Origin: a virus
Strand: one strand, 5' to 3'
DNA length: 64,000 bases
IMG/VR virus record: IMGVR_UViG_3300020190_000042
Coordinates: 1 to 64,000 of that record
Positions 5,033-10,625 of the stretch are shown one piece after another (within the stretch, counting starts at the first letter, position 1; each line of letters begins with the position of its first letter). A model generated the notes under the pieces. The model was not told the origin of the DNA. It saw only the letters and a list, made by a program, of their open reading frames with translations, and made no database searches. Made by a program: the position numbers and the translations under genes.

Positions 5033-5060
5033 TTGACAACCAAGCTACACATTGTATGAT
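5033..5060 (+). promoter_or_regulatory. Consensus sigma-70 promoter
   Basis: TTGACA at 5033-5038 and TATGAT at 5055-5060 with a 16-base spacer, in an AT-rich tract (4955-5140) that codes for nothing recognisable. It points right, toward the RNA and genes from 5146 on, and is the best host-type promoter in the left half of the window. Confidence 0.75.
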
Positions 5061-5145: not shown

Positions 5146-5349
5146 ATGAGCGATTATTTCTGATCTGTGTCGTTTCAGCACACCGTTACCAAAACTCGCA
5201 AGTTTGACGTTTTTGCTCGTAAAGGCAAAACTGGCTGGGCTTATAAATGCACAATCGAAGCTAAGACTGAGGCCCACGCTAAAGAGCTTGTGCTCGAAGA
5301 ACATGTTGATCTCCAAAGGCATCAGCTGGCGGTTTACCCTAAACGCTAA
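5146..5349 (+). CDS. Small conserved protein with an in-frame early stop, 60 aa from GTG
   Basis: The main frame starts at GTG 5167 and reads MSFQHTVTKTRKFDVFARKG, then GWAYKCTIEAKTEAHAKELV. In the same frame 21 bases upstream lies ATG 5146, followed by four sense codons and TGA (5161-5163). Either the true start is GTG 5167 and the five-codon ORF is a leader, or the N-terminus carries a nonsense change. The strand-helix pattern resembles small cyanophage proteins with EA.AK..A motifs. First gene after the promoter at 5033-5060. Confidence 0.65.
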
Positions 5350-5352
5350 TTA

Positions 5353-5367: not shown

Positions 5368-5380
5368 GTTACAGAGGCGC

Positions 5381-5457
5381 CGGGACGCCTGAAGGCTGTC
5401 GCGTTTTTATGGGAGTTTAATCACGACATGTGTGGGGTTTGATTCCCCCGGTCCCGA
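5381..5457 (+). ncRNA. Cloverleaf-like structured RNA (tRNA-like, not a canonical tRNA)
   Basis: Four stems fit together. The closing stem is CGGGAC (5381-5386) with GTCCCG (5451-5456). Hairpin GCC-TGAA-GGC is at 5387-5396. TGTCG (5397-5401) pairs with CGACA (5424-5428) around a 22-base loop. GGGG-TTTGATT-CCCC (5434-5448) has a 7-base T-arm-like loop. Spacing mimics a tRNA, but the D-arm lacks GG and the anticodon-type loop is three times too long. Bases 5412-5421 in that loop (GGAGTTTAAT) are perfectly complementary to 5545-5554, just before the next start codon, and 5410-5418 to 5474-5482. A cis-acting regulator is inferred. Confidence 0.5.
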
Positions 5458-5555
5458 CTCACCTATTTACATAAAACTCCCAAACTGCTATGCTCCGCAT
5501 ACGGGCGGCACCGGCCCCAACCAACGTGGCGCGTCTACACTCACATTAAACTCCT
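5458..5555 (+). promoter_or_regulatory. Leader with two anti-loop complements upstream of the 5556 gene
   Basis: AAACTCCCA at 5474-5482 and ATTAAACTCC at 5545-5554 both pair with the large loop of the upstream cloverleaf. The second abuts the ATG at 5556, where a ribosome would bind, and there is no purine-rich SD. Pairing would hide the start region, so alternative pairing to the first copy could act as a switch. Structure inferred by eye. Confidence 0.4.
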
Positions 5556-5978
5556 ATGACCATTAAAACCTCTGAGCTTGTTTCACTAGGTGCAGTTGCC
5601 GCTGAGGCATTCGATGACTTCGACACTGCACAGAAACAATTAAACGATTCCTTTGGTATTCCCTACACCGCAGCCAAAGATAACTTGTTGAGAGACGTAA
5701 CTATTGCCGAGTCAGAAGGCGTAGATCTTCGTCTGTTTTCGGGAGAAGAAAGCCGGTTCCGATTCCCTACCTTTAATACAAACATTGTGGTGCGTATCCA
5801 CCGTAAGCCCACGCAGCACACCAAGCTGGAAAAGCTCGCGGCGAAAGTTACAAAGCTCGAAAGCGAATTGAAGCTGGCGAAAATGTGTCTAAAACATGAA
5901 GCTGAGCAACTTATTGCCGCAGGCGCTTGTGACGAATTTACAGACAAGATTGTCTTAGCCTTCACTCGGATCAAGTGA
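5556..5978 (+). CDS. Hypothetical coiled-coil protein, 140 aa
   Basis: ATG 5556. N-terminal half: MTIKTSELVSLGAVAAEAFD and an acidic helical part. Residues about 90-120 form a heptad-like coiled coil (LEKLAAKVTKLESELKLAKM). No recognised family. Its translation may be controlled by the structured leader immediately upstream. Confidence 0.75.
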   Translation: MTIKTSELVSLGAVAAEAFDDFDTAQKQLNDSFGIPYTAAKDNLLRDVTIAESEGVDLRLFSGEESRFRFPTFNTNIVVRIHRKPTQHTKLEKLAAKVTKLESELKLAKMCLKHEAEQLIAAGACDEFTDKIVLAFTRIK

Positions 5979-8889: not shown

Positions 8890-9097
8890 CCGTTTTGATC
8901 TAAACGAAACGGACTTCGACGCAGATGGTGTAGCAGTTAAATACGATCAGGATCACAGCGGCAACGACTGTTACCATGTGATCCTGAAATTGGGTGTCGT
9001 AGCCACGGTCTCCTCGGCTCATTTAGTGGAGGAGAAAAAAATTCAATTACTTCGTTTCTATCCTGTAGATCAACATGAACACAACAACTCATTCTGA
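8864..9097 (+). CDS. Small hypothetical linker-gene protein, 77 aa
   Basis: GTG 8864, overlapping the ATPase gene by 26 bases and the VWA gene by 23. The product is acidic with a beta pattern (CYHVILKLGVVATVSSAHLV). Overlap on both sides suggests it belongs to the same complex or is translationally coupled. No known motif. Confidence 0.6.
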   Translation: MQSAKSVADRFDLNETDFDADGVAVKYDQDHSGNDCYHVILKLGVVATVSSAHLVEEKKIQLLRFYPVDQHEHNNSF

Positions 9098-10625
9098 GAT
9101 CATTCGGATCGTAGACAACGAACCGCTGACACTTGCGTGCTCAGCATTAGCAGATTTTCTGTGGCAAGATTTCATACGTGATGCGCGCCCGATCGTCACT
9201 TATTTAATTGATCATTACAACATTAAACAGTTATCACGGTTTGGTAAGGAGATCTTCGAGCGTCTGTACAGTGCTGATAATGTATCCTGGTTAGTTACCG
9301 AAGACGCCTACGAGGATTATTTCCGGAAGGTGTGCGATGGAGATACCGCCGCAATCCCAGAAGGTTACAAACCAGAAAACGGGATTTGGTACTCAATCAT
9401 GAGCGATTTGAGCCAAGCTGCTGCGTGGCCTGAGCTCGTGCGTCGGTCCATGGGCGACCAGTTCAACGCAGGCAACAACGCTGTAAACATCATCAATGAA
9501 CTCTCTAAAGTAATCGAGCAAGCAATTGAGAGCGGACAATTTGATGTACAGCTTCTAACTTCTGCAGATCAAAAGCTTCAAGAGTTACGCGAACAATATC
9601 AAGAGGCGATCGACAAAGGCGACAAAGAGAAAGCGGAACAGATTCGCACTGAGGGTAAGAAACTCGGGGAAGCAATCAACGAAGCGATTCAAGAAGCAAA
9701 AGATAAAATTCAAAGCCAGTCGCACAAAATTATCGACAAGGCAGTTGAAAAAAATGATGACATAAATGAGGCTATCAGTGGCTTCCACGGTGGCACCGCC
9801 GGCACCGGTAAGCATGGTGCAGACTTAGAGGCAAAGAAAGCGCTTGCAAAAAAACTCCGTAATAACAAAGAACTCGCAAAGCTGACGCAGAAATTAGGAG
9901 CGCTCCGCAGGATTTGGCACGAGCGTAAGAAGGCGCGCCGAACCAAAGATACCTACGAATCAATTACAGGCGCTCGGTTTGGCAACGATGTAACCAAAGC
10001 TTTCCCGGTGGAAGTAGCTTTGGCTGCGAGCCCAGAGGGCAGCGCACTGTTTGCTCTGAAGTATTCTCAAAAGACACTATTTATCAAAGACTACACATCA
10101 ACACGTAAAGATATTGGCAAAGGCCCAATCGTCATGTATGTGGACGTGTCCGGATCGATGCACGGCGATACAGAGGTATGGAGCAAAGCTATCGCGTTTG
10201 TAATTGCGGAGGAAGCTCTGAAACAGAACAGAGAGATACAGATTTACCTGTTCGACACACAGATCAACGGTTCTGTGAAACTTCAGAAAGATCGTAAAGA
10301 CAACAAGGAGCTGATCGATTTTGTCTGCACTTGGACCCTCGGCGGAGGCACTAGCTTTAATGCCGTTCTGGGCCACGCGCTGGACAAAGCGAAGATCTCA
10401 GAACGAGCTGATGTGCTAATGATTACAGATGGACACAGCGAAGTTCATGATAATTTTATTAGGCGCTTAAACTCCTTTAAGCAAGCCAGCGGTGTTCAGT
10501 GGAGCACAGTCTGCATCAATACAGACATCCCTAGTGTTTGCCGTGCCTTTAGTGACGAACTCTACTCAGTCAATTTGTATAATCCGGACGTAGCAGTTGA
10601 CGCTATCCAAAAATGTTTAAGGTAA
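9075..10625 (+). CDS. VWA-domain (MIDAS) protein, ViaA/CobT-like, 516 aa
   Basis: The C-terminal VWA domain starts near residue 345. YVDVSGSM (about 355-362) gives the DxSxS metal-ion-dependent adhesion site; a Thr in GGGTSFN and the aspartate in MITDGHSE complete it. The middle (residues 150-300) is a long, charged, helical stretch rich in Lys/Glu/Gln. The N-terminal 130 residues form a separate helical domain. VWA partners of MoxR ATPases act as adaptors that hold the target. Adjacent to its ATPase in one operon. Confidence 0.88.
   Translation: MNTTTHSEIIRIVDNEPLTLACSALADFLWQDFIRDARPIVTYLIDHYNIKQLSRFGKEIFERLYSADNVSWLVTEDAYEDYFRKVCDGDTAAIPEGYKPENGIWYSIMSDLSQAAAWPELVRRSMGDQFNAGNNAVNIINELSKVIEQAIESGQFDVQLLTSADQKLQELREQYQEAIDKGDKEKAEQIRTEGKKLGEAINEAIQEAKDKIQSQSHKIIDKAVEKNDDINEAISGFHGGTAGTGKHGADLEAKKALAKKLRNNKELAKLTQKLGALRRIWHERKKARRTKDTYESITGARFGNDVTKAFPVEVALAASPEGSALFALKYSQKTLFIKDYTSTRKDIGKGPIVMYVDVSGSMHGDTEVWSKAIAFVIAEEALKQNREIQIYLFDTQINGSVKLQKDRKDNKELIDFVCTWTLGGGTSFNAVLGHALDKAKISERADVLMITDGHSEVHDNFIRRLNSFKQASGVQWSTVCINTDIPSVCRAFSDELYSVNLYNPDVAVDAIQKCLR

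Follow-up and report, generated by a model that had tools for sequence, protein, structure and literature searches.

A conserved, non-decoding tRNA mimic behind a small phage gene: a candidate substrate for host tRNA-processing enzymes

Between a small open reading frame (ORF) of a virus genome and the gene that follows it lies a segment whose RNA can be drawn as a tRNA-like cloverleaf, and whose enlarged loop is complementary to the start of that following gene. This raises the question of whether the segment encodes a tRNA, a switch acting on the next gene, an antisense RNA, or a mimic of tRNA shape. The window, by which we mean the whole stretch of DNA analysed here, represents 64 kb of a virus record that is 75,226 bp long. 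Among cultured phages, Synechococcus phage S-EIVl, which comes from a high-arctic lake, is the closest to it (68% identity in the major head protein and 48% in the terminase), and this kinship, together with the gene content of the window (SpeD, ThyX, a family A DNA polymerase, and a bpMoxR/vWA pair), points to a freshwater cyanobacterium of the Synechococcus type as the probable host. The cloverleaf element was not found in S-EIVl; among 50,697 phage records there were neither nucleotide relatives nor relatives of a 399-aa neighbour protein, and a scan of bacterial genomes with an alignment of the neighbour protein yielded nothing. The relatives compared here are all metagenomic contigs.

The sequence-only reading of this locus had described four tRNA-like stems and an anticodon-like loop of 22 nt, all of which are present in the window, with the following parts being read from the window sequence unless stated otherwise.

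5381-5457, plus strand: tRNA-mimic RNA, delimited by covariation; the covariance model scores 94 bits in the window
5381-5386/5451-5456, plus strand: acceptor-like closing stem of 6 bp, CGGGAC/GTCCCG
5387-5396, plus strand: D-like hairpin of 3 bp, GCC-TGAA-GGC, with loop TGAA
5392, plus strand: D-loop base equivalent to tRNA position 19, elbow partner of T5440 (tRNA 56); A-U here, G-C in the sister clade
5397-5401/5424-5428, plus strand: anticodon-like arm around the 22-nt loop (annotated as 5397-5403/5422-5428)
5404-5421, plus strand: enlarged "anticodon" loop containing TATGGGAGTTTAAT; 5407-5421 complementary to 5545-5559, 5410-5418 to 5474-5482
5434-5448, plus strand: T-arm, GGGG-TTTGATT-CCCC
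5440, plus strand: T-loop base equivalent to tRNA position 56, elbow partner of A5392 (elbow-pair analysis)
5457, plus strand: discriminator-like base A5457

The element does not encode a CCA 3' end, and its base -1 is not conserved. Judged on the single sequence, the window fold is unremarkable (z -0.45), and the cloverleaf is not its predicted lowest-energy fold: a structure with the big loop and the T-arm paired is predicted at -27.2 kcal/mol versus -23.6 kcal/mol for the cloverleaf. The lowest-energy fold of 5379-5570 contains a 15-bp helix between the loop and the start of the next gene. It is the comparison with relatives, not single-sequence folding, that raises the cloverleaf above chance.

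For this comparison, viral contigs were searched with two downstream proteins, which gave about 55 contigs, and a structure-guided scan together with covariance model R1 detected the element at a matching position on about two dozen contigs, with one copy per record. These amount to 18 distinct sequences (the window, L004, L005, L006, L007, L010, L011, L015, L016, L019, L020, L022, L024, L029, L039, L043, L048, and G007). In the alignment of 10 syntenic sequences 98% of cells pair, double-sided changes occur in 14 of 20 pairs, and 0 of 500 shuffles are equally good; sliding the stem partners lowers the paired cells from 97-98% to about 38-51% (38-50% in the 10-sequence alignment). In an alignment of 21 sequences, which is biased towards the structure because it was fitted to the model and which includes five weak outliers, 19 of the 20 pairs covary. 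The covariance search of relatives that the sequence-only reading had called for thus came out in favour of the stems, all four of which are supported by covariation. The closing stem alone is found as CGGGAC, CGGAAC, CGGAGC, CGGGGC, CCTCGC, CGGCGC, and CGGCGG, each with its complement, and the acceptor, the D-hairpin, and the anticodon-like arm form when L004, L005, L006, L010, L011, and G007 are folded individually. The cloverleaf at 5381-5457 is real. It is also dispensable, because several relatives live without it, the element being missing from L017, L025-L028, L031, L035-L037, and L053.

The likeness to tRNA extends to the elbow, where G19-C56 is the canonical tRNA pair. The D-loop mostly reads U-G-R-N, with two purines being kept, and the T-loop UUYGAUU, and the equivalent positions vary together: U56 goes with A19, and C56 with G19. 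R19 and Y56 can pair in all 10 aligned sequences (A-U in six, G-C in four), a level reached by 3 of 500 shuffles, and the other members inspected for this pair show no exception. On the tree of the 399-aa neighbour protein the switch falls on a single branch, so it represents one compensatory change that has been kept without exception. This covarying elbow argues for a tRNA-like three-dimensional fold, beyond the cloverleaf drawing.

Could the element then decode? It has the acceptor/T-arm stack, the TTCRANY-like loop, and the D-loop/T-loop elbow of canonical tRNAs, and it lacks their 7-nt anticodon loop on a 5-bp stem; its acceptor of 6 bp, followed by an unpaired junction and then a 4-bp T-stem, is shorter than the canonical 7+5. 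The anticodon-position arm has 5 bp with a 3-nt loop in L020, and 7 bp with a 9-nt loop in L039; in the window the loop reaches about 22 nt. ARAGORN called no tRNA at the element in the window or its relatives, and as a control it called real tRNA-Met and tRNA-Leu genes elsewhere in the relative G007; no tRNA, tmRNA, or Rfam family was called by ARAGORN or Rfam anywhere in the window, none of the Rfam models (riboswitch, T-box, tRNA, tmRNA, and others) reaches its gathering cut-off at the element in the window or relatives, and a permissive Rfam scan of the window region returned chance matches only. A decoding tRNA is excluded because the "anticodon" loop measures 3 to about 22 nt and because ARAGORN and Rfam are negative, and an identity as a decoding tRNA was dropped as already contradicted. 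The element is a non-decoding tRNA mimic, and the earlier remark that no riboswitch class matches it is borne out by the same searches, with the tRNA shape being upheld by covariation. Neither the tag peptide nor the G3-U70 pair of tmRNA was found, the third pair being G-C or U-A (alignment A3), and the idea of a mini-tmRNA with the loop reading frame ATGGGAGTTTAA was rejected, as this frame is not kept in relatives.

The surroundings of the element bear on how it is transcribed and on what it could act upon.

5033-5060, plus strand: sigma-70-type promoter TTGACA-N16-TATGAT, 11/12 (consensus match only)
5168-5350, plus strand: conserved ORF of ~60 aa (...FDVFARKGKTGWAYKC..AVYPKR)
5466-5494, plus strand: promoter TTTACA-N17-TATGCT with TG before the -10, its spacer holding AAACTCCCA (hexamer match)
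5502-5532, plus strand: 5'-terminal H-type pseudoknot of the next gene's leader (24 relatives)
5502-5506/5514-5518, plus strand: pseudoknot stem 1, outermost pair mismatched in the window
5508-5512/5528-5532, plus strand: pseudoknot stem 2, GCACC/GGCGC, outer pair seen as G-C, C-G, and A-U
5545-5559, plus strand: start region ATTAAACTCCTATGA, complementary to the loop
5556-5978, plus strand: next gene (ORF 5556), a 140-aa protein with no PHROG match and only sub-threshold Pfam matches

The promoter at 5033, upstream of the ~60-aa ORF, is the probable source of the cloverleaf-bearing transcript, judging by its consensus match. The ~60-aa ORF has no PHROG or Pfam match, and the element starts 6-50 nt past its stop (VYPKR-like end) in 16 of the 19 cases scanned; the three exceptions are L004, where this ORF can be seen although the automatic call chose another frame, and the variant elements L042 and L050, whose placement differs. 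Promoter-like hexamers lie 3' of the element at a distance of a few to tens of bases, with a mean of 8.3/12 matches versus 4.9 in shuffles, clear in about half of the relatives and weak in the others, and in relatives without the element the promoter directly follows the stop codon; a simple scan found no terminator-like site. Since a sigma-70 promoter stands between the element and ORF 5556, the main mRNA of this ORF should start at about 5501 and lack the cloverleaf. The pseudoknot was found in 24 distinct relatives (A6), with 92.9% of cells paired compared with 33-40% after sliding, and it is kept even where the cloverleaf is missing; thus the leader of ORF 5556 carries an RNA structure distinct from the cloverleaf, which may serve in autoregulation or mRNA stability. 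This pseudoknot (GGCACCG ... AACGTGGCGC), with which the leader of the 140-aa gene opens directly after the predicted mRNA start, has no Rfam match. We also observed, 3' of the 5033 promoter, a five-codon frame at 5146-5163 (ATGAGCGATTATTTCTGA), a possible leader peptide, which is preceded by ATTAAACTC, a motif also found before ORF 5556.

Structure, elbow covariation, synteny, the lack of a fixed anticodon loop, and the promoter-like sequence 3' of the element are the basis on which we lean, with moderate confidence, towards a conserved non-decoding tRNA mimic that is cut out by host tRNA-processing enzymes, with transcription, enzyme recognition, cleavage, and function being inferred. The acceptor/T-arm stack and the elbow are the parts of a tRNA that RNase P, RNase Z, and the CCA enzyme recognise. 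The element would be made as the 3' end of the ~60-aa gene's transcript and would fold into a tRNA-like L, with the acceptor/T-arm stack joined to the D-loop/T-loop elbow; this shape would be recognised by host RNase P at 5381, by RNase Z after A5457, and perhaps by CCA addition. Cleavage would cut read-through transcripts at a defined place, provide the upstream mRNA with a processed 3' end, separate it from the next gene, and release a stable RNA of ~77 nt, while the anticodon-position arm would be free to vary and, in the subclade of the window, its large loop may pair with the start of the next gene. In short, the element probably makes use of host enzymes that trim tRNAs, either for cleaving viral messages or for freeing a small regulatory RNA. 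This role is favoured because the parts recognised by the enzymes are shared, because the animal RNAs mascRNA and menRNA are processed in this manner, and because RNase P processes phage RNAs, having been reported to act on M3 and C4 (PMC11143913).

The complementarity of the loop opens two other readings, both centred on the start of ORF 5556. The sequence-only reading had noted two matches, and both are present: GGAGTTTAAT at 5412-5421 is complementary to ATTAAACTCC at 5545-5554 over 10 bp, and TGGGAGTTT at 5410-5418 to AAACTCCCA at 5474-5482 over 9 bp. If two G-U pairs are included, the helix with the start region grows to 15 pairs, joining 5407-5421 with 5545-5559 and spanning the ATG; for the window loop its own start ranks first among 122 ORF starts, the own start is the best of 15 target start regions for the window, L004, L005, L011, and L016, and between the window and L004 the helix carries one A-U to G-C double change. 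Of the switch on ORF 5556 that had been proposed from these matches, complementarity beyond composition in the five phages stands, but a cis switch, in which the cloverleaf loop hides or frees the start within one read-through transcript, is poorly supported. Despite the loop/start helix in the predicted fold of 5379-5570, we regard such a switch as very improbable because promoter-like hexamers separate the element from ORF 5556 (read-through from 5033 being possible), because the loops of most cloverleaf-bearing relatives are unrelated and lack start complementarity, and because gene, promoter, and leader pseudoknot are retained where the element is missing; nor is there, beyond the tRNA-like loops, a conserved core of the ligand-binding type. 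The main rival is an antisense RNA resembling C4 of P1/P7, a ~77-nt RNase P-processed antisense RNA (PMC5320573): the open loop of the excised, tRNA-shaped RNA would pair with the start of ORF 5556, in trans or in read-through RNA, and repress its translation. The continuous pairing across the ATG, the ranking of the own start, and the double change speak for this account, which we nevertheless consider rather unlikely, as in ten members (L006, L007, L010, L015, L019, L022, L029, L039, L043, and L048) the loop shows no preference for the own start, the promoter spacer being the better complement for that of L010; start-complementary loops are thus found in five sequences and not in ten others, a single compensatory event is seen, AAACTCC-type start regions are not generally enriched, and the AAACTCC/AAACCCC start motif family occurs also beside non-matching loops. 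The loop/start pairing may reflect antisense use in one subclade, with shared descent plus chance as the alternative, and an antisense function could coexist with the cutting of messages. General trans-regulation of many starts by GGGAGTTT was rejected, since apart from a few cases (three in L005) AAACTCC shows no enrichment near starts. Within the -35/-10 spacer, AAACTCCCA or AACTCCCA is kept (window 5471-5482; L004, L005, L010, L011, and G007), and this loop-complementary sequence could be an operator instead of an RNA pairing site.

The tRNA likeness itself admits further explanations. That the element is a degenerate true tRNA or a tRNA pseudogene of tRNA-Pro type is hardly credible: the window acceptor CGGGAC/GTCCCG-A (C1-G72, A73) and a UGGG in the loop recall tRNA-Pro, but the stem pairs are maintained through compensatory change, L020 has no room for an anticodon, ARAGORN finds nothing, and the acceptor sequences vary freely among relatives, on which ground a tRNA-Pro origin was rejected. 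A decoy for host tRNA-acting factors (anticodon nucleases, modification or charging enzymes) is improbable, as is a role solely as a substrate of enzymes that bind the elbow; the conserved acceptor, T-arm, and elbow are the parts that such enzymes bind, whereas conservation is lowest in the anticodon arm, at which anticodon nucleases act, and a decoy would not need fixed placement after one gene. An extension of the favoured reading, excision of the mimic by host enzymes, is more speculative than that reading and may be doubted: these viruses would share a family of tRNA mimics lacking an anticodon, which host RNase P and RNase Z would release from 3' UTRs, and the position of the anticodon would serve as an exchangeable antisense module, with a start-tuned loop in the subclade of the window and a plain hairpin elsewhere.

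Anticodon-less tRNA mimics are known mainly from animal lncRNAs and RNA viruses; here a covariation-supported family of mimics is found in DNA phages, fixed after one gene. If excision by host enzymes is correct, phages exploit the tRNA processing of their hosts to generate mRNA ends and possibly small RNAs, and as tRNA finders and Rfam miss the element, similar ones may be overlooked in other phages. The tRNA mimicry of a bacterial non-coding RNA is exemplified by the tRNA-like module of bacterial Y RNA (YrlA), from which the element differs in that no long Ro-binding stem is seen; the neighbours examined include no Ro/TROVE protein, the vWA protein encoded at 9075-10625 being of the CoxE/MoxR type. 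With the tRNA-like domain of tmRNA the element shares the acceptor/T-arm and a reduced D arm, but it has no conserved tag frame, and an arm of ordinary size takes the place of the long P2 helix. The closest parallel in form is provided by mascRNA and menRNA, from the 3' ends of animal MALAT1 and MEN-beta, which like the element are tRNA-like RNAs ending a longer transcript, and which combine a small D arm with two guanines, a variable anticodon-equivalent arm, and missing junction linkers with RNase P, RNase Z, and CCA processing (PMC11693755). The element has the features expected of this type, namely a tRNA-like fold, an elbow with a Watson-Crick pair of the 19-56 type, a small D arm with conserved purines, missing junction linkers, and a variable, non-decoding arm in place of the anticodon arm. 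Unlike it, mascRNA and menRNA belong to animal nuclear lncRNAs and have a 7-bp acceptor (6 bp in the phage element), and their processing is demonstrated whereas that of the element is proposed; the phage loops also reach ~22 nt and vary by lineage, and common descent is unlikely. C4 of P1/P7, an RNase P-processed antisense RNA according to Citron and Schuster 1992 as cited in PMC8546580, is likewise a phage RNA, comparable in length, that lies upstream of a gene and has target-specific loops (PMC5320573, PMC11143913), but it consists of three stem-loops and is no tRNA mimic, while the element has no Rfam match and an antisense target supported in part of the family.

Beyond the family, scans of viral contigs for the D-loop/T-loop pattern returned real tRNAs, chance matches, and one tRNA-like element, L068 (L156), at 942-1018 on the minus strand of an apparently unrelated 16.3 kb phage contig, which carries a 12-bp arm at the anticodon position and is flanked by the stop of a 158-aa ORF on one side and a terminator-like hairpin on the other. 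At the same locus as the element, upstream of the 140-aa homologue, L040, L041, L042, L044, L046, L050, and L051 hold variant tRNA-like elements with a T-arm of canonical size and a hairpin for the anticodon loop, followed by a hairpin of the GCCTC...GAGGC type; L046 was placed among these look-alikes by eye. The covariance model gives 25 bits for L068, 16-18 for L050/L051, and 17 for L040-L044, and ordinary tRNAs reach up to 21 bits with it; common ancestry with the element is not claimed because these scores overlap or barely exceed those of ordinary tRNAs. A tRNA-Cys call with the odd anticodon ACA is confined to one sub-lineage (L010 743-812 minus, L018 525-594, and L052 2530-2599). In L008 (4306-4378) and L009 (258-330) the T-arm half remains and the 5' half is lost, an apparent decay of the element.
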